Assembly: GCA_011375175.1 (NCBI GenBank)
Contig: DRME01000020.1
Coordinates: 1 to 38,679, forward strand
Direction: 5' to 3'
DNA from: Deltaproteobacteria bacterium
GTDB taxonomy: Bacteria > Desulfobacterota > GWC2-55-46 > DRME01
DNA length: 38,679 nt
The stretch's first letter is position 1, and every line of letters starts with the position of its first letter. The position numbers and the translations under genes were made by a program. The notes beneath the pieces are model-generated. The model saw only the letters and a list, made by a program, of their open reading frames with translations. It was not told the origin of the DNA and ran no database searches. Below, one piece after another: positions 21,762 through 31,665 of this stretch.

Positions 21762-22079
21762 TCAGAGGCTCTTGAGGTACTTGACCACCGCATCGGCGTC
21801 GGCGTCGGAGAGCTTCTGGGCCGGCATGTCGATGGGGTACTTCTTGTACTTCTTGGCAGCGCCCTTGCGGCCGTGGAGGATGACGTCCTTGATGGCGGCG
21901 GCGTCACCCTTTATGAAGTCGTTGCCCTTGAAGGCGGGGGCCATGGGCGTGCCCTTGCCGCCCTTGCCGTGGCAGGCCTGACACTTGGACTTGTAGATCT
22001 TCGCGCCGTCAGCGGCAATGGCGGCGCCGGAGAAAGCGAGACCTGCGGCTGCGACAGCTGCTATTATTGCCTTCCTCAT
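21762..22079 (-). CDS. Periplasmic monoheme cytochrome c
   Basis: 105 aa. A signal peptide (MRKAIIAAVAAAGLAFSGAA, cleavage expected after AIA) precedes a class I cytochrome c with the heme site CQACH at residues 33-37 and the likely axial Met in IDMPAQKL at residue 85, ending with the usual C-terminal helix (ADADAVVKYLKSL). Lysine-rich, so basic; it could shuttle electrons to the oxidase-like protein encoded upstream in the same direction. ATG at 22079 has AGGAGGT seven bases upstream. A strong terminator follows. Confidence 0.93.
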   Translation of the reverse strand: MRKAIIAAVAAAGLAFSGAAIAADGAKIYKSKCQACHGKGGKGTPMAPAFKGNDFIKGDAAAIKDVILHGRKGAAKKYKKYPIDMPAQKLSDADADAVVKYLKSL

Positions 22080-22189: not shown

Positions 22190-23047
22190 CTACAGGGCCG
22201 AATCGATTATGACGGCGCCGAAGAGCACGCCGAGATACATCATCGATATCTTGAAGTTCTTCCAGGCGACTTCGCGCGTCGGCGTCATGAGAAGCTGCAC
22301 GTTCCAGAAGATGAAATAGACGCCCACGGCAACGGCGGCGGCGAGATACAGGAGGCCGTTGTAGCCGAGGAAAAATGGTATGAGAGAGGAGACGACAAGG
22401 AGCACCGTGTTTACCAGGATGTAGACGGCCGTCCTGGCATCGCCTATGACGACCGGCAGCATGGGGATGCCCGCCCTGGCGTACTCCTCGCGGTGGAAGA
22501 TGGCGAAGCTCCAGAAGTGCGACGGCGTCCAGAAGAACATGACCACGGCGAGCAGAAGCGGCGGCATGCATAGCTCGGGATGGACCGAAGCTCCGCCGGC
22601 AAGTACTGCGAAGCTGCCGGCAAGCCCCCCGATGATGATGTTGAGCCAGCTCCGGCGTTTGAGCCATACGGTGTAGATGAAGGCGTAGGTAAAGGCGCCG
22701 AGCGCGAGATGGAGCGCCACCATGTAGTTGAGGGCCTTGACCGAGACGAGAAGGGAGAGGAGGAAGAGGGCGGCGGCGATGAGGAAGACCGGCGCCGAGC
22801 CTGCGAGCTCGCGCGAGGGCAGCGGCCGGCCCCGCGTCCTCTCCATCACGGTGTCTATGTCGCGGTCGAAGTAGTGGTTGAAGGCGCTCGCGCCCATGGA
22901 GGCGAGCATGGTGGCCACGACGAGAAAGAACATCGTGCTCGCCGAGAAATCGCCGCTCTGGGCCGCCACGAAGCCCACAACGGCGCTGAAGGTGATGAGA
23001 CCGCAGATGCGTATCTTGAAGAGCGGAAGGTACTTTGCTATCGCCAC
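22190..23047 (-). CDS. ctaB: Protoheme IX farnesyltransferase (heme O synthase)
   Basis: Integral membrane UbiA-family prenyltransferase that adds a farnesyl group to heme b, making heme O for heme-copper oxidases. 285 aa with about nine helices. The first Asp-rich motif NHYFDRDIDTVMERT and the second-loop region HFWSFAIFHREEYARAGIPM are both intact. GTG start at 23047 follows GGAGGT by five bases; the longer open frame upstream crosses a repeat remnant. Between an oxidase-like subunit I and a cytochrome c, it suggests that the oxidase-like protein uses heme O or A. Confidence 0.94.
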   Translation of the reverse strand: MAIAKYLPLFKIRICGLITFSAVVGFVAAQSGDFSASTMFFLVVATMLASMGASAFNHYFDRDIDTVMERTRGRPLPSRELAGSAPVFLIAAALFLLSLLVSVKALNYMVALHLALGAFTYAFIYTVWLKRRSWLNIIIGGLAGSFAVLAGGASVHPELCMPPLLLAVVMFFWTPSHFWSFAIFHREEYARAGIPMLPVVIGDARTAVYILVNTVLLVVSSLIPFFLGYNGLLYLAAAVAVGVYFIFWNVQLLMTPTREVAWKNFKISMMYLGVLFGAVIIDSAL

Positions 23048-23064
23048 CGGAGACCTCCTTGTAA

Positions 23065-23150
23065 GGAAGTTCTGATCTCTTCCACCGGGGAAACCGTGGG
23101 GCCGAGCCCCTTCTGCAGAAGGCTTCCCCCGCGACAATCAGTCAGAGACC
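23065..23150. repeat. Degenerate single-hairpin derivative of the palindromic repeat
   Basis: Starts GGAAGTTCTGATC and ends AATCAGTCAGAGACC, which resemble the element termini, with only one hairpin between them: GGGGAAACCGTGGGGCC and the complementary CTTCCCCC side around TTCTGCAGAA. The central palindrome and second hairpin are missing. It lies between ctaB and the oxidase gene. From 23151 to 23302 I see nothing. Confidence 0.6.
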
Positions 23151-23302: not shown

Positions 23303-24763
23303 TCAGGGCCCCTGCCGGCCCGCGAGCCACCACCGCTCGCCCGCGCTCTCCTGTCCGCCGGCGGCCGGGACGCGCCTGAGCATGGAGATCGCGGCGTTGA
23401 GCACGAAGGTGATGCCGCCCGCGATGGCCACCAGGCCGCCCAGCCCCATTATGCTCATGCCCACGTACTTCCACGTGGTGTCGAGATTCTGGGCCGCGCC
23501 GTAGGTCTTGCGCGCCACTCCGTGGGAGCCCGCTATCCAGAGCCCCCCGGCGAAGAGTATTATGCCCAGGCTGTAGAGGTAGGGCTGGACCCTTGCCAGT
23601 CTTGTACTATAAACGGCCCTGTCGAGTAAAGGCAAAATTTCGTAGAAGAGGCCCATGAAGGCGATGGTCACGGCGCCGATGGTGCAGTGGTAATGGGCCG
23701 GTATCATGGTGTTGACGCCCTTCATGGTGGCCGCTATGGCGCCGCCCACGCCGAAGACGGCCATGGAGAGCACGAGCGACGAAAAGGCCGGGTCTCTCCA
23801 TGGCAGCCCCTTCCCCTCGAAGCGCGTGCCCCTCTTCGAGACGAGAAGGAAGATGATCAGCACGGCGAATACGGAGGTGGACGGCCCGAGTCCCCACTTG
23901 AGCGTTGTAAAGCTCTCCTTGTAGGCCTGGGTGGCCGTGTCATGAAAGTAGTAGATGAAGGGCGCCGTCAGCGCGATGGCCACGTAGAGCGCGAACAGGG
24001 CCTTGGCCGTCCTCTCTCCCACGGCGCTCGTGCCCATGGTTATGGTCGTCAGCATGAGCCAGACGGTGACCATGGATATGGTGTTCGTATACTGGAGGAC
24101 GTGGCCTCCGCCCCAGACGAAGCGGTCGAAGTCGAAAAAGGCCTTCTCCGTTGCGAAGTGGTTGTAGCCCGAGAGGCCGAAGCATATGAAGGCAATGAGG
24201 GCGCAGAGGGCGGCGGCCGCCATGCCGAAGGTCGCGGCGGGGAGCGCAGCGCCTTCTCTGCGGGCTTTGATGACGGTGAGCAGGGTGTTGACCACGTTGA
24301 GAAGGATTCCGGCCGCAAAGAGCGCAAGCCCCGTGTAGAACCAGGGGTGGAGGAGGAAGGGCACGTAGTTGGCCAGTTCGGCGTAACCGAGGCCCGATAG
24401 CGCCGTTACGACTATGAGCGCCGTGCCGCCCGCGGCCAGTCCCAGGGCGACCCGGCAGAGCAGGGGACTGAACATGGCCGTATCGGTGAAGATCGTGGAG
24501 GTGAAGACCCACAAGAAGCCCTCGAAGGCGAGGAACCATATGATGAAGGCCATGACCACGTGGCCCACCAGCGCAACGTATATGTAGTCGGAGCCCAGCG
24601 GCAAGAGGTCCTCTATGACCGGCGTCCTGGCAAGGGCCACCATGAGGGCGAATATGCCGGCGAACACGAGGGCCAGGACGGCGAAGAGCAGCCAGCCGTA
24701 GGCGAGCCGAAGCGAAGGTGCTGTTACGGGCGAGGCGGCGCCCCGCTGCAATGGTCTTTCCAT
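23303..24763 (-). CDS. Divergent heme-copper oxidase superfamily subunit I
   Basis: 486-aa, twelve-helix protein of the heme-copper oxidase/NO reductase superfamily. By spacing, H68 (VGHVV) and H359 are the low-spin heme ligands, H357 the high-spin heme ligand (AHYHC), and H221 the first ligand of the second metal (WGGGHVLQY). The next site, normally His-His, reads FHD (H274-D275), 53 residues after H221 and 83 before H357, as expected by position. Y225 is four residues after H221, like the Tyr of A-type oxidases. One metal ligand thus seems replaced by Asp. No subunit II with CuA is encoded nearby, but heme O synthase and cytochrome c genes follow. It could be an oxidase, an NO-reductase-like enzyme, or a non-catalytic relative. 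A weak AGGG precedes the ATG. Confidence 0.8.
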   Translation of the reverse strand: MERPLQRGAASPVTAPSLRLAYGWLLFAVLALVFAGIFALMVALARTPVIEDLLPLGSDYIYVALVGHVVMAFIIWFLAFEGFLWVFTSTIFTDTAMFSPLLCRVALGLAAGGTALIVVTALSGLGYAELANYVPFLLHPWFYTGLALFAAGILLNVVNTLLTVIKARREGAALPAATFGMAAAALCALIAFICFGLSGYNHFATEKAFFDFDRFVWGGGHVLQYTNTISMVTVWLMLTTITMGTSAVGERTAKALFALYVAIALTAPFIYYFHDTATQAYKESFTTLKWGLGPSTSVFAVLIIFLLVSKRGTRFEGKGLPWRDPAFSSLVLSMAVFGVGGAIAATMKGVNTMIPAHYHCTIGAVTIAFMGLFYEILPLLDRAVYSTRLARVQPYLYSLGIILFAGGLWIAGSHGVARKTYGAAQNLDTTWKYVGMSIMGLGGLVAIAGGITFVLNAAISMLRRVPAAGGQESAGERWWLAGRQGP

Positions 24764-25051: not shown

Positions 25052-25150
25052 ATGATACGTTGCACTGAGTGTTCTTATAGCCGTGCATGGCAACTTTCCG
25101 ACGGACGCTTTAAGTGTCGTCGTTGCGGCACATGTCTTTTTATGGCATAA
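25052..25150 (+). pseudogene. Zinc-ribbon fragment, probably N-terminus of an IS1595-type transposase
   Basis: A 32-codon open frame from ATG 25052 to TAA 25150. It has C4-x2-C7 and C22-x2-C25 around RAWQLSDGRFKC, the pattern of the DNA-binding zinc ribbon that starts IS1595-family transposases (Cys-x2-Cys, aromatic, xLxDGRxxC). The catalytic DDE part is absent; the frame ends where it runs into the 3' end of the reverse transcriptase gene, overlapping it antiparallel by 11 nt. It is best read as a leftover of an insertion sequence truncated when the island formed. A free-standing 32-residue zinc-ribbon protein is possible but less likely. Confidence 0.5.
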
Positions 25151-27242
25151 GCTTAACGAAGTCTGCATAAGCTGTTCGCAGTTTGGCCACGAACCTGTTT
25201 CTTTCTTGAACCTTGAGATGCCTGCATTTGACAGCTGTCTTCTTTTCGTAGGGATGAGAAACAGGTAAATGGTTCCGACGCATGTTCATTTCCCGGAAGC
25301 AATCCGCCACGGTAGGACATTCCTTAGAAAATGGACCTGACGCGTCCAGCATGACCCCGAAATCCACAAGTTGACCTTTTCGATCGATAGTCTTGCACGC
25401 ACCTGGGTGCCCAGTTCTATTTAAATGTCGTTGTAATGCAAGGAACACAGCATGGTTGAACGAATTCTGGCAAGCCAGCCAGAATGATCTCCCACCATCA
25501 AAGGCGGCCTCAGCTTGCTTGAGTAGGCCAAGAGCATGCACATATTCAGACCCCAATAGGCTATGCCATGACTTACTTCGATGTACTTTGTATCTTGATT
25601 CGAGAATCTCTGCAATCGGGTCCACCTGTCTTCCACGAGTTTGTATCACTCCCAATTCACAGAGGGTATTACATACTTGGGAAGGCAGACCGTCTTTCTT
25701 CAATCCAAAGACATCAAGGGTCAACTTGCGTTCATGAAGTCTCGAACAGATGGATAGACCCGGTTCGAAACTAGAGCGTCGCAGATAATATTCAGCCGCT
25801 TCGCCTTTCGAGAAAGCCCCAACGGGAAGCACCGGAGCCAGTAGTGATTGTAAGATCGGCGACTGGAATTTGAGAAACCGGCTATGCTTCTTTCCCCCCA
25901 CTTCCTCTGAAACACAAAGGAAGTGGCAAGCTCCCCATTTTTCCATCAGGTTTTCGCCCGAGCCCTGTTTCGCAATGGCAATCGCCTTAGTCGTAAGTGC
26001 TCTGATCGCCCTGCGTCCCAGAGTTGTCGGTATCCGACGGTAACGGGCGAGTATATGCCAAGCTTCACCACGCACGTACGGGTACGGGTTGCTCTTCACC
26101 AAATCTAGGCACAAACGCTCTATCGGCTTTCGATAGCCGAACTGACCGAGGTAGGTGAAGAATGCATCCGCATGTTCTGGGTGACGCGGAATCAACTTCA
26201 GAACAAGCTGTAACAAGTTTGTGTCTGGCTCTGCGCGGAAAAGCACATACCGCAGCCGTGTCTTGTCCTCCACTTTATAGGGCTTCCCACCTATAGCAGA
26301 AAAAAACCAACGACGTGCACGGCTCCTGGTCAACTTCTCAGTCCCGGCTTCGTGCTGTGGGTCCGAAATACTGGGCAGCATACCCATAGCTTCATCGATT
26401 TTCTGGGCGCGCTTGATAGCGAACTTGCCCGTTTGTGGGATCAATCCTCTTTCTCTACAACACTTTTCGAGTTCGATGACGTTCTCCCTTATCTCATCTT
26501 CTGACGCTGCAAAGAGTCTCACATCATCCACGTAGCGCATATATCCGCGACGCTTACGCAGGGCAAGGTCAATAGGTAGAAGGAAGCATTCGGCAAGGAA
26601 ATCAGAAGCAATTGGTCCTTGGGGAATGCCATGCCCATGACCTGATGATGCTTTATTTGAGCTCCATGTACGGAGACAAGTGAGAATCAATTTAGTATCG
26701 TCGCTCGTTAAACTTAAACGTGGATAAATGGTTTTAAGTAGCAATTCATGGGAGATAGTATCGTAGAATGCAGCTAAGTCGAAATCTGCGACCCATCGAA
26801 GCCTGGCCTTATAGTTCTTTCGGATTTTACGCTGAAAAGCCCTGTAAGTATCCTGCCACCTTCGAAAAAAGAAGATGCTGTCGGGCTTCTGGAGGATATT
26901 GCTGAAGATAACCTGGAACTGCAACGGAGCCCGTTTTGACTGTAATCGCTTAGCTGCAAGGTTGGCAAACGCCTGAAGAACAATCTGGTCTTCAATGTGG
27001 AGCAGCGCCAGTGGGCGGTGAAGTCCCGATGGTTTCGGAATGTATATTCGTTCAGGGTGCCGCGGCCTGAATGTTCCCCCTATGAGACGCTGTCGAAGAT
27101 CTTTAATATTGTCATCCAACGCTACTTCGTAAGCGTAGTAAAGACTTCGGAAAAACCGTTTATACTGTTGGTTACCGCCAGTGGTGATGCGACGCCAAGC
27201 CAATATGAGATTTGGGCGACTCGCAAGTTGGCTCAGTTTCAA
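25140..27242 (-). CDS. Reverse transcriptase with C-terminal HEPN-like domain (AbiA-like, putative phage defence)
   Basis: 700-aa RNA-directed polymerase. RT motifs in order: ERIYIPKPSGLHRPLALLHI (residues 64-83), motif A DFDLAAFYDTI (153-163), motif B GIPQGPIASDFLAE (205-218), motif C YVDD (237-240), then a thumb-like region. Residues ~330-500 are helical and resemble the HEAT-like repeats of Abi/unknown-group RTs. The C terminus (~560-700) has R656-N-H-L-P-V-S-H663, fitting the R-x4-6-H motif of HEPN RNases, as in lactococcal AbiA. No maturase (X), HNH or retron features are seen. TTG start with AGGAGG five bases upstream. Composition is clearly AT-richer than the neighbours, and truncated genes flank it, so transfer is likely. 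A defence role by abortive infection is inferred from the family. Confidence 0.82.
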   Translation of the reverse strand: MKLSQLASRPNLILAWRRITTGGNQQYKRFFRSLYYAYEVALDDNIKDLRQRLIGGTFRPRHPERIYIPKPSGLHRPLALLHIEDQIVLQAFANLAAKRLQSKRAPLQFQVIFSNILQKPDSIFFFRRWQDTYRAFQRKIRKNYKARLRWVADFDLAAFYDTISHELLLKTIYPRLSLTSDDTKLILTCLRTWSSNKASSGHGHGIPQGPIASDFLAECFLLPIDLALRKRRGYMRYVDDVRLFAASEDEIRENVIELEKCCRERGLIPQTGKFAIKRAQKIDEAMGMLPSISDPQHEAGTEKLTRSRARRWFFSAIGGKPYKVEDKTRLRYVLFRAEPDTNLLQLVLKLIPRHPEHADAFFTYLGQFGYRKPIERLCLDLVKSNPYPYVRGEAWHILARYRRIPTTLGRRAIRALTTKAIAIAKQGSGENLMEKWGACHFLCVSEEVGGKKHSRFLKFQSPILQSLLAPVLPVGAFSKGEAAEYYLRRSSFEPGLSICSRLHERKLTLDVFGLKKDGLPSQVCNTLCELGVIQTRGRQVDPIAEILESRYKVHRSKSWHSLLGSEYVHALGLLKQAEAAFDGGRSFWLACQNSFNHAVFLALQRHLNRTGHPGACKTIDRKGQLVDFGVMLDASGPFSKECPTVADCFREMNMRRNHLPVSHPYEKKTAVKCRHLKVQERNRFVAKLRTAYADFVKLMP

Positions 27243-28760: not shown

Positions 28761-28988
28761 ATGTTGAAGGAACGGGTGGAAGAGGCCCTCAACGGCATCA
28801 GGCCGGCCCTGCAGGCCGACGGCGGCGACGTGAGCCTCGTGGACATAAACGAGGCCGAAGGCATCGTCAGGGTTCAGCTCCAGGGCGCGTGCGCCGGCTG
28901 TCCCAGCGCGCAGATAACCCTGGCCATGGGTGTTGAGAGGGCGATCAAGGAGAAGGTCCCGGAAGTAAAACAGGTTCTCTCCGTCTGA
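28761..28988 (+). CDS. NifU-like C-terminal domain Fe-S scaffold/carrier (Nfu)
   Basis: 75-aa protein consisting only of the NifU C-terminal domain. The cluster-binding CxxC is in LQGACAGCPSAQITLAMGV near residues 43-60, with the normal start MLKERVEEALNGIRP. Two subunits are expected to share one [4Fe-4S] cluster and pass it to apo-proteins. It heads a run of Fe-S and redox genes ending in mrp, another Fe-S carrier. GGAGGT is nine bases before the ATG. Confidence 0.93.
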   Translation: MLKERVEEALNGIRPALQADGGDVSLVDINEAEGIVRVQLQGACAGCPSAQITLAMGVERAIKEKVPEVKQVLSV

Positions 28989-29173: not shown

Positions 29174-29371
29174 ATGGCTTACGAAATACTCCAATCCTGC
29201 ATCGAATGCGGCGTATGTCTGCCCGAGTGTCCCGAAGGGGCGATCTCCGAGGGGAGTCCCTACGTGATCGACCCCAAGTTCTGCACCGAGTGCGGCGCCT
29301 GCGCCGAGGTCTGTCCGGTCGAGGCCTGCGTGCCGGCCGGCACCGACCGGCGCCGGGCCTCCAACAAGTAG
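29174..29371 (+). CDS. 2[4Fe-4S] ferredoxin
   Basis: 65-aa bacterial-type ferredoxin with two Cys-x2-Cys-x2-Cys-x3-Cys-Pro motifs: CIECGVCLPECP (residues 9-20) and CTECGACAEVCP (residues 37-48). It resembles the small YfhL/Allochromatium-type ferredoxins and could donate electrons at low potential. The upstream Shine-Dalgarno sequence is weak (GGCGGTG). The 185 nt between nfu and this gene show no other feature. Confidence 0.93.
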   Translation: MAYEILQSCIECGVCLPECPEGAISEGSPYVIDPKFCTECGACAEVCPVEACVPAGTDRRRASNK

Positions 29372-29426: not shown

Positions 29427-29843
29427 ATGAGCAAGGTTACGGTCTGGTTCATAAAGAGCGCCATGGTATACCTGCTGCTCGCCGTACTGCTCGGCATCCA
29501 CATGTCCATGGCCGGCCCAGGCTATCCCTGGATGCAGATCCACGCCCACTTCAACCTGCTGGGCTGGATGTCGATGATGATATTCGGAGTGGGCTACCAC
29601 ATACTGCCCCGCTTCAGCGGCCAGCCGCTCTGGAGCGTGAGGCTCAGCGAACTCCACCTCTGGCTCGCCAACGCGGGCCTTCTGGGTATGGCGGCCGGCT
29701 GGTTCGTCCTCTCGGCGGGAGGGGGAAAGATGCTCCTCTTCTTCTTCTCCACCGTCGAGGCCGTCTCGGTGGCGCTCTTCGTGGTGAACATGTTCAAGAC
29801 CATAAGGGCCATGCCCGCGCCTCCCATGCCGCCCAAGCCCTGA
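29427..29843 (+). CDS. Small His-rich membrane protein resembling a fragment of the oxidase/NorB fold
   Basis: 138 aa with four predicted helices (about 8-27, 43-61, 78-97, 103-124). Conserved-looking residues H39 and H41 in QIHAHFNLLGW and H58 in GVGYHILPRFSG resemble the HxH-type heme-binding helices of heme-copper oxidase and NO reductase subunit I, and similar stand-alone proteins occur in other anaerobes. At this size it cannot be a full oxidase; it might bind a b-type heme and work in quinol or NO-related electron transfer. The Shine-Dalgarno AGGAGGT is strong. It precedes the DUF1858 and ScdA_N genes on the same strand. Confidence 0.7.
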   Translation: MSKVTVWFIKSAMVYLLLAVLLGIHMSMAGPGYPWMQIHAHFNLLGWMSMMIFGVGYHILPRFSGQPLWSVRLSELHLWLANAGLLGMAAGWFVLSAGGGKMLLFFFSTVEAVSVALFVVNMFKTIRAMPAPPMPPKP

Positions 29844-29920: not shown

Positions 29921-30136
29921 ATGGCGGAAGCGAAGATAACCAAGGAGATGAGCATCGGCGACGTGATGGAGAAGTACCCGGTGACGGAAAAGGTCTTCAT
30001 AAAGTACTTCGGCAACGGCTGCTTCACCTGTCCCGGCGCCAAGATGGAGAACATCGCCTTCGGAGCCACCATGCACGGCGTGGACGCCGACACGGTGGTC
30101 AAGGAGCTCAACGAGGCCGTGGAGGAGGGCGAGTAA
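29921..30136 (+). CDS. DUF1858 domain protein
   Basis: 71-aa soluble protein. The DUF1858 pattern is clear: SIGDVMEKYPVTEKVFIKYF, then GCFTCPGA (Cys 34 and 37), then a helix ending KELNEAVEEGE. The domain is often found next to or fused with hybrid-cluster proteins and other Fe-S or NO-related enzymes, but its activity is not established. AAGGAGG precedes the ATG. The following gene starts 4 nt after its stop and belongs to a structurally similar family, which suggests joint function. Confidence 0.85.
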   Translation: MAEAKITKEMSIGDVMEKYPVTEKVFIKYFGNGCFTCPGAKMENIAFGATMHGVDADTVVKELNEAVEEGE

Positions 30137-30335: not shown

Positions 30336-30539
30336 AGCTTACCTTTCTGAGGGAACCTTTTTGTAAAAAGGTTCCCTCAGACTCCCTCCAAAGACTTTCA
30401 ATGCGACTTGGTTTTCCCCTGTTTTGCCAGGCAAAACAGGGGAAAACCAAGTCGCATTGAAAGTCTTTGAAGGGGGTCTGGGGGAAACGTGGGCCTGTGG
30501 CCCTTCTACAGAAAGTTTCCCCCAGGGTAATCAAATCCC
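30336..30539. repeat. Palindromic intergenic repeat, copy 8 (type 2 centre, inverted)
   Basis: Starts immediately after the ScdA_N stop codon with an eroded left terminus. Hairpin B, the stem strand, a type 2 centre with GGTTTTCCCC pairing with GGGGAAAACC, the second stem strand, and a long-tip hairpin A (GTGGGCCTGTGGCCC) follow, ending GGGTAATCAAATCCC. It lies upstream of mrp within a run of same-strand genes. Confidence 0.88.
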
Positions 30540-30606
30540 TCCGGGGCTTTCGGCGCCGCCGCAGGTGCCGAAAGCTACCGAAGAGGTTTTAAGGAGGTCG
30601 ATTGAA

Positions 30607-31665
30607 GTGTCCGCTCCGGCTGTAAACGAAGAGGCCGTGCTCAAGGCCCTGGGTACCGTCATGGACCCGGAGCTCGGCAAGGATCTCGTCACTCTGGGAA
30701 TGATAAAGAACCTCAAGGTCGAGGGATCGAGGGTGGCCTTCGACCTGGTGCTCACCACGCCGTCGTGTCCGCTCAAAAAGGAGCTCACCGACTCGGCGCG
30801 CTCGGCCGTCGAGGCCCTGGACGGGGTGGAGCAGGTGGATGTCAACACGACGGCCAGCGTGCCCCAGGCCAAGAACCTGCCCCAGCAGGCGCCGATCCCC
30901 AAGGTCAAGAACACCATCGCCGTGGCCAGCGGCAAGGGCGGGGTGGGCAAATCGACGGTGGCGGTGAACCTGGCGCTTGCGCTCTCGCAAAGCGGCGCAA
31001 AGGTCGGGCTCCTCGACATAGACCTGTACGGGCCGAGTCTGCCGCTCATGATGGGCATCCACGAGCCGCTCAAGGCGACACCGCAGGAGCGGCTCGTGCC
31101 GCTCGAGGCCTACGGCGTGAAGCTCATCTCCGTGGGCTTCATGCTCGACGAGGAGACACCGCTCATCTGGCGCGGGCCGCTGGTCATGCAGCTCGTAAAA
31201 CAGTTCCTCACCGGTGTGGAGTGGGGCGAGCTCGACTACCTGGTCATAGACCTCCCGCCCGGCACGGGAGACGCCCAGCTCACGCTCGTGCAGACCATAC
31301 CGGTCACCGGGGCCGTCATCGTGACCACCCCCCAGGACGTGGCCCTCATAGACGCCCGCCGGGCCATAAAGATGTTCGGCGAAGTGAAGGTGCCCATAAT
31401 CGGCATCGTCGAGAACATGAGCTACTTCACCTGTCCCCACTGCAACGAGACGACCGAGATATTCAGCCACGGCGGGGGGCAGAAGACGAGCGACCGCTAC
31501 GGCGTGCCCTTCCTCGGAAGCCTGCCGATGGACCCGGCGATCCGCGAGGGCGGCGACGCGGGAAAGCCCGTTGTCGTGGCCAGACCCGAATCGAAGGACG
31601 CCGAGATATTCATGGAGATAGCGCAGAACGTGGCGAGCAAGCTCAGTATAATGGCCCTTAGCTGA
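30607..31665 (+). CDS. mrp: Mrp/NBP35-type Fe-S cluster carrier ATPase
   Basis: 352-aa P-loop protein that carries and inserts Fe-S clusters. An N-terminal MIP18/DUF59 domain (about 5-85; VMDPELGKDLVTLGMIKN, TTPSCPLK) precedes a deviant Walker A loop ASGKGGVGKSTVAVNLA near residue 110 and the cluster-binding pair CPHCNE near residue 280. GTG start at 30607 with GGAGGT eight bases upstream; the same frame stays open into the repeat upstream, but that is not coding. A strong hairpin terminator follows. Confidence 0.95.
   Translation: MSAPAVNEEAVLKALGTVMDPELGKDLVTLGMIKNLKVEGSRVAFDLVLTTPSCPLKKELTDSARSAVEALDGVEQVDVNTTASVPQAKNLPQQAPIPKVKNTIAVASGKGGVGKSTVAVNLALALSQSGAKVGLLDIDLYGPSLPLMMGIHEPLKATPQERLVPLEAYGVKLISVGFMLDEETPLIWRGPLVMQLVKQFLTGVEWGELDYLVIDLPPGTGDAQLTLVQTIPVTGAVIVTTPQDVALIDARRAIKMFGEVKVPIIGIVENMSYFTCPHCNETTEIFSHGGGQKTSDRYGVPFLGSLPMDPAIREGGDAGKPVVVARPESKDAEIFMEIAQNVASKLSIMALS

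Follow-up and report, generated by a model that had tools for sequence, protein, structure and literature searches.

A predicted oxidase-fold protein without the helix VII histidine pair represents a sister clade of eNOR

The window analysed here is the whole 38,679-nucleotide stretch of contig DRME01000020.1 (assembly GCA_011375175.1, Deltaproteobacteria bacterium). Its minus strand carries an intact open reading frame of 486 codons, P0001 (486 aa), followed on the same strand by a CtaB-type gene and a cytochrome c gene (coordinates in Table 1). Since P0001 matches COX1 (PF00115; 78.4 bits, E 6.5e-22, residues 21–432, cut-off 34.8), it is no chance reading frame, and from this match we judge it to be a divergent member of the COX1 family. 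An earlier note on this DNA, made from the sequence alone, had called it a heme-copper oxidase homologue with a heme O synthase and a cytochrome c nearby and no CuA subunit, and was right on each count: blastp with two eNOR subunit II queries found no CuA subunit in the window, so that this mark of eNOR is missing here. The CtaB gene is the only match to CtaB in the genome. Other searches with P0001 gave nothing meaningful (NCBIfam), one chance match (phmmer, single sequence against the PDB), no PF02628 (CtaA/COX15) match in the Pfam search, and 27 stretches with no relative among them in a single-protein scan of genome contigs.

On the plus strand lies a divergent block of genes for a NifU-like protein, a ferredoxin, a mini-protein related to COX1 (P0002, which matches CcoN positions 340–410), a DUF1858 protein and a product that, from its sequence, we take to be an Mrp-like ATPase. 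Between P0001 and the NifU gene, which adjoin each other in relatives, sits a reverse transcriptase gene (25140–27242, minus strand) whose best PADLOC model is RT_UG19 (DRT; 508 bits).

Table 1. Features of the P0001 locus, with predicted roles of residues
Feature	Position	Strand	Basis
P0001, 12-helix heme-copper-oxidase-fold protein without helix VII His pair	23303..24763	minus	Pfam COX1, AlphaFold, VIA-align
H68, predicted low-spin heme ligand, helix II	24560..24562	minus	H in 77/77 distinct members having the position
H221, predicted sole remaining CuB/FeB histidine of three, helix VI	24101..24103	minus	80/80, 24/24, 25/25
Q224, predicted distal-side Gln at i+3, common with eNOR-type GH..Q	24092..24094	minus	family alignments and mixed alignment
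I270-Y271, slot of the normal His-His	23951..23956	minus	three alignments
H274-D275 ("FHD"), past the His-His slot; Asp is the HHxxxD Asp	23939..23944	minus	alignments
H357-Y-H359, predicted high-spin and low-spin heme ligands, helix X	23687..23695	minus	80/80
R418-K419, equivalent of Arg-Arg in normal oxidases	23507..23512	minus	80/80; aligned with RR
Heme O synthase-type prenyltransferase (CtaB, UbiA family)	22190..23137, start possibly 23047	minus	PF01040 E 2.5e-55
Single-heme cytochrome c, 105 aa, signal peptide-like start	21762..22079	minus	PF00034/PF13442 E ~5e-13
NifU-like protein, divergent conserved neighbour	28761..28988	plus	PF01106; synteny
2x[4Fe-4S] ferredoxin	29174..29371	plus	domain search; clusters with relatives' ORFs
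P0002, 138-aa mini COX1/CcoN-like protein with HxH	29427..29843	plus	PF00115 33.8 bits, under cut-off
DUF1858 protein, conserved neighbour	29921..30136	plus	PF08984
Putative Mrp-like ATPase, conserved neighbour	30424..31665	plus	synteny

The fold of P0001 was modelled with AlphaFold on a family alignment, A2 (66 of 81 rows, the stop-bearing, short and near-duplicate rows having been dropped), and came out as an ordinary oxidase fold (pLDDT 91.7, pTM 0.92). VIA-align placed the model on aa3 and ba3 oxidases with Z scores of ~33 and ~32, respectively, over ~440 residues at 3.0–3.6 Å, and Foldseek ranked a ba3 oxidase first (TM-score ~0.8). The B-family ba3 oxidase of Thermus also gives the best solved-structure relatives by profile (E ~1e-18). 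The 12-helix fold of the superfamily is therefore present by Pfam, AlphaFold, VIA-align and Foldseek.

In order to locate the ligands of the second metal, the helix VII region was aligned in three ways. When the A2 profile is aligned with Thermus ba3 oxidase, the HHQFAD motif of the latter falls opposite I270-Y271...D275; a profile–profile alignment of A2 with 20 eNOR-type proteins (A3) gives HHLLVD the same position; and when A-type, ba3-type and eNOR proteins are aligned together with the family, the His-His pair is again equated with I270-Y271. The earlier note had named such an alignment as its check, and had read H274-D275 as the pair with Asp in place of the second CuB histidine. All seven residues it listed (H68, H221, Y225, H274, D275, H357 and H359) are where it put them; the His-Asp pair, however, turns out to be an error of register. 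Since the three alignments agree on I270-Y271, D275, which aligns with the Asp of both HHQFAD and HHLLVD, is the ordinary HHxxxD Asp, and both helix VII histidines are, by alignment, absent. The second-metal ligands are thus abnormal, as had been proposed, but by loss of both helix VII histidines rather than by a His-Asp substitute.

Conservation was followed in sets of different origin across what we call the P-type (or P), a label coined here for the clade of P0001. A His-His pair in that helix occurs in none of 80 distinct members and in none of 25 P-type proteins recovered by profile search in one class. Among the 80, positions 270–271 read IY in 45, FY in 10, IF in 7, LY in 5 and otherwise in 13, with Tyr271 kept in 65 and lost in 15; residue 274 is H in 14, Y in 39 and F in 15; and Asp275 is kept in 60 and lost in 20. 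Y225 does sit at i+4 from H221, the slot of the cross-linked Tyr to which the note had assigned it, but this residue is Tyr in just 2 of the 80 and Phe in 73. The 80 are the best 80 of 175 relatives, retrieved mostly with the exact patterns IWFLAF[EMQ]G and WGGGH[IM]LQ, so that the invariance of W76, W217, H221 and Q224 in this set is partly built in. Two sets are free of that bias, namely A1 (P0001 and 23 orthologues from a whole-protein search, 24 rows) and the 25 profile-found proteins of another class, and H221 and Q224 are kept throughout both (24/24 and 25/25). H68, H357 and H359 are likewise invariant in A1, in which 22 of 24 rows keep Asp275 and residue 274 may be H, Y, F, N, I or Q. 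The 25 copies come from 24 of the 30 P-bearing genomes of their class; G138, G140, G210, G357, G369 and G401 lie outside this set, the copies of G138 and G140 being covered separately as loci L135 and L137. One degenerate member of the 25, L206, has lost H68 and the Arg-Lys pair.

The heme side of the protein looks normal. H68, H357 and H359 supply the three histidine heme ligands of the superfamily (two low-spin, one high-spin), and R418-K419 takes the position of the Arg-Arg pair that, in normal oxidases, presumably binds the heme propionates. Three CuB/FeB histidines complete the histidine sextet of the superfamily, as described in PMC3413370, and of these H221 alone is left. Since one His and one Gln stand above the heme, P0001 would have no normal binuclear centre. 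We conclude that it has, with very high probability, kept two heme sites and lost the second-metal (CuB/FeB) ligands.

Compared with the known families, the P-type is closest to eNOR (ba3-a1, a degenerate B-family oxidase), with which it shares a full-length profile match, the helix VI GH..Q motif and operons. The eNOR-type proteins, however, keep all three second-metal histidines (HH is invariant in 20 rows) together with a Gln at i+4 of the helix VI histidine, and the P-type has neither: its Gln is at i+3, and i+4 is the mostly Phe position occupied by Y225 in P0001. Thermus ba3 oxidase differs from it by the His-His pair, the conserved cross-link Tyr and the CuA subunit, which is not beside P0001 in the window. 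The A-family hallmark of a cross-linked Tyr in HPEVY/HPAVY is also missing, Y225 being unconserved and no HP motif being present. Altered second-metal ligands with conserved hemes recall the qNOR-like NO dismutase (NOD). In NOD, according to PMC3413370, one His is replaced by Asn and Glu by Gln, the metal site is kept and the relationship is to qNOR; the P-type, by contrast, has lost both helix VII histidines, is related to eNOR and does not carry the NOD residues. With cNOR/qNOR, sNOR and gNOR it shares the superfamily and, by inference, NO. Table A4 of PMC8756737 lists E, N or D at the Tyr position of these enzymes; in the P-type both that residue and His-His are missing, and P0001 has neither the Glu of cNOR/qNOR at i+4 of the helix VI histidine nor the Asp that the same table gives for gNOR. 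The earlier suggestion of an NO-reductase or NO-dismutase-like branch therefore stands as far as the nearest neighbour is an NO-reductase branch, but the likeness to cNOR, qNOR and NOD fails.

In a 39-sequence tree, the P-type forms a single clade (support 100/100) on a long stem. Its sister is the eNOR group (99/97), and a ba3-type oxidase of Methylobacterium falls outside the two, in a sampling where cNOR, qNOR, gNOR, nNOR and NOD have no rows and the sNOR-like, cbb3-like and ba3-like rows are long branches; a 35-sequence tree of the same scope, without the plasmid sequences of Thermus, Thermomicrobium and Defluviimonas that belong to the eNOR group of the larger one, gave the same arrangement. 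By tree position P0001 is thus no member of eNOR but of a separate clade. We identify the sister group as eNOR because it has Gln at the Tyr position (HPSQQ/HSSQQ), a residue that marks eNOR in Table A4 of PMC8756737, and because two further papers fit: ba3-a1 oxidase has been renamed eNOR (PMC8879329), and ba3-a1 is described as having no catalytic Tyr and as accompanied by SCO genes (PMC6431628). Two Thermus thermophilus plasmids (L217, 1823–3508; L218, 1841–3523) encode an eNOR-like subunit I with GHFK in helix X, in which Lys replaces the low-spin heme His in both strains; these genes are annotated as b(o/a)3 or cbb3-type oxidase subunit I.

The P-type clade is spread over several phyla, its loci being titled as Deltaproteobacteria-labelled groundwater MAGs, Nitrospirota/Nitrospirae, Nitrospinota, SAR324, Gammaproteobacteria, Rhodospirillales, a Methylocystaceae MAG and a Balneolaceae MAG. 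Among close P-type pairs dN/dS is 0.06–0.29 (25 pairs listed of 32), and the clade is under purifying selection. We regard the P-type as an ancient sister clade of eNOR predicted to be without a second-metal site; no earlier description was found in the literature searched, and the survey of Murali 2024 may include such sequences or have discarded them.

The genome of P0001 (2.49 Mb) has seven COX1-family matches, which by their motifs are an A-type, one cbb3-subunit-I-like, two eNOR-like and one sNOR-like protein, P0001 and the 138-aa mini-protein; P0001 and the eNOR-like genes are on different contigs. On one of the other contigs (C67, L185, 57–6105), the two eNOR-like subunit I genes lie in tandem, followed by the sNOR-like one (GHIVMN).

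Around the P genes of 81 loci, CtaB lies within 1 kb in 43, and the divergent block recurs, with a P0002-like gene beside DUF1858, NifU and Mrp in 25, DUF1858 in 22 and cytochrome c in 24. In other lineages P lies inside eNOR operons together with subunit II (CuA motif), subunit I, CtaB, SCO and a cytochrome b/ferredoxin/FlpD fusion, and it is the last gene of a subII-subI-(CtaB)-SCO-cyt b operon in L137, L186, L192, L195 and L199. Genes of nirS type are near P in L121, L128, L130, L135–L137 and L140, following the P/eNOR operon in L128, L136 and L137 (cd1 confirmed for L137). Elsewhere P stands beside aa3-type operons with DUF420 (the domain confirmed for L129), CtaB or SCO-like genes (L119, L126, L129, L131–L133, L138, L139), and in L138, whose genome has no eNOR-type match, a CuA protein follows P. 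The eNOR operons of L137 (7904–9436), L099 (13127–15190) and L080 (3280–5511 and 6843–8885) encode a fusion of cytochrome b, 2x[4Fe-4S] and FlpD (MvhD-type), assigned by domains in L137, with a NuoF-like gene also in L080; an NO reductase would receive its electrons in an unusual way here.

We assessed co-occurrence in 274 genomes of one class, in which P is found in 30 and eNOR-type subunit I in 23, both in 18, P only in 12, eNOR only in 5 and neither in 239. Kinship being ignored, eNOR-type subunit I is present in 18/30 genomes with P and 5/244 without (odds ratio 72), and a cd1-type gene in 23/30 and 31/244, respectively, the latter defined as PF02239 at 1e-60, which counts NirF and NirN too. 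Among the eNOR-less genomes, again ignoring kinship, cd1 is found in 6/12 with P and 28/239 without (p 0.002). Among 97 genomes (that of the window and 96 relatives; whole-protein search), P is present in 45, eNOR-like proteins in 35, both in 33 and neither in 50, kinship being ignored here as well and the two kinds being split by identity alone (P at least 47%, eNOR-like 30–36%); weak fragments of G035, G041 and G058:C103 are left out of the eNOR-like count, and the G005 copy has two stops. In the wider set of 47 P genomes, reached from 49 (CtaA) and 47 (eNOR) of the 80 loci, 38 have an eNOR-type match of at least 460 bits and 24 have CtaA. CtaA occurs in 8 of the 97 genomes and in 4 of the 45 with P, and the window genome is without it. 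For NirS, nothing convincing was found in the window genome, one weak piece scoring 22.7 bits. Among 27 genomes with an A-type oxidase close to that of the window genome, 21 have no CtaA (COX15) match and 20 of these carry P; the 21 may work with heme O, or may make heme A in some other way.

The P-type probably has a function other than classic O2 or NO reduction. That it is found again and again with eNOR, nirS and, in the gene order of the window, iron-sulfur genes points to NO metabolism, and this company suggests that it may bind NO. We tentatively propose, at something short of an even chance, that P0001 is a two-heme protein whose heme-only gas site serves NO metabolism, the second metal having been lost. 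A low-spin heme would be held by H68 and H359 and a second heme by H357, with H221, Q224 and usually Phe225 on the distal face. The electron donor could be a periplasmic cytochrome c, whose gene belongs to the same run here, or, as in one relative, a CuA subunit; electrons would pass through the low-spin to the second heme, which by itself would be a gas site with a single metal, for NO (or O2). By scavenging, transferring or converting NO in one-electron steps, the protein might support eNOR, nitrite reduction and NO-sensitive oxidases. Weighing against this proposal, P is missing from 5 of 23 eNOR-bearing genomes of the class of 274, while of its 30 genomes with P 12 have no eNOR and 7 no cd1-type gene, and the window genome has no convincing NirS; several relatives stand beside aa3 operons with DUF420, CtaA, CtaB or SCO, which suits a role in assembly better; and H221 might itself be a heme-iron ligand, which would make P an electron carrier without a gas site. 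A more specific version, that an NO reductase has turned into a heme-only enzyme that has a globin-like distal pocket of His and Gln, is supplied by cytochrome c, and binds and converts NO (e.g. by dioxygenation or delivery) beside eNOR and NirS, seems to us unlikely.

Company with CtaB, CtaA, DUF420 and SCO points instead to oxidase biogenesis, raising the possibility, a serious though minority one, that P is a maturation factor on an oxidase scaffold that takes heme O from CtaB and passes it on or modifies it, or that helps in assembling the metal centre in eNOR or aa3. This would suit the CtaB genes within 1 kb, including the sole CtaB of the window genome, the presence of P in 20 of the 21 genomes with the window-like A-type oxidase and no CtaA, and the DUF420 (CtaM-type), CtaA-like or SCO-like genes near P at aa3 loci (L119, L126, L129–L133, L138–L140), some of these names being our own assumed assignments from sequence. 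CtaA/COX15 itself, a membrane protein that we take to act after CtaB and to have two heme sites, belongs to a different family. CtaM acts late in oxidase assembly according to PMC9145763, which also fits a maturation role. We nevertheless favour an NO-handling protein, because the cd1 link persists where eNOR is absent, because CtaB is part of eNOR operons anyway (the Defluviimonas and Thermomicrobium plasmids), so that P may owe its CtaB neighbour to inheritance, and because redox turnover is implied by a cytochrome c or CuA partner, which an assembly factor does not need. The eNOR-bearing genomes without P also count against a maturation factor. Adjacency to CtaB, and a window genome without CtaA, had also suggested a general stand-in for heme A synthase; with CtaA coexisting with P in 24 of the 47 wider genomes, P is no simple replacement and this idea was dropped.

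Alternatively, P could serve eNOR as a non-catalytic partner subunit: sharing the oxidase fold of the catalytic subunit, it would form a dimer with it and conduct electrons or protons. The two share one operon in Nitrospirota and Deltaproteobacteria-labelled MAGs (L082–L084, L088, L092, L094, L099, L113, L115), P closes the operon in Gammaproteobacteria, and both are present in most of the wider P genomes, but they are on separate contigs in the window genome and each occurs without the other in the class of 274 genomes; we rejected an obligate subunit on the latter ground and consider a partner role quite improbable. The invariance of H221 and Q224 and the frequency of Tyr271 would allow an active NOR-like enzyme with its second metal on altered ligands (His-Asp, or H221/Q224/Y271). 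Considering that H274 is a minority residue, that D275 and Y271 are each lost in many members, that three alignments place the His-His slot elsewhere, and that copper or iron would find few ligands in one invariant His and one Gln, we see little prospect for it. Least credible is a decaying, functionless oxidase copy: ligands have been lost, in L206 H68 and Arg-Lys as well, but the frames are open, the heme ligands are unchanged across a deep clade, and the dN/dS values of the listed pairs led us to reject a pseudogene.

Heme-copper enzymes are taken to be defined by their second metal. With hemes kept and second-metal ligands lost, a conserved clade that stays under selection beside eNOR and NirS amounts to a natural CuB-less experiment, and the P-type would show what the oxidase scaffold does without a second metal. 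It may also add a missing part to eNOR-based denitrification. Automatic annotation will name P-type genes oxidases or NO reductases, so that the potential for respiration and N2O formation will be miscounted.
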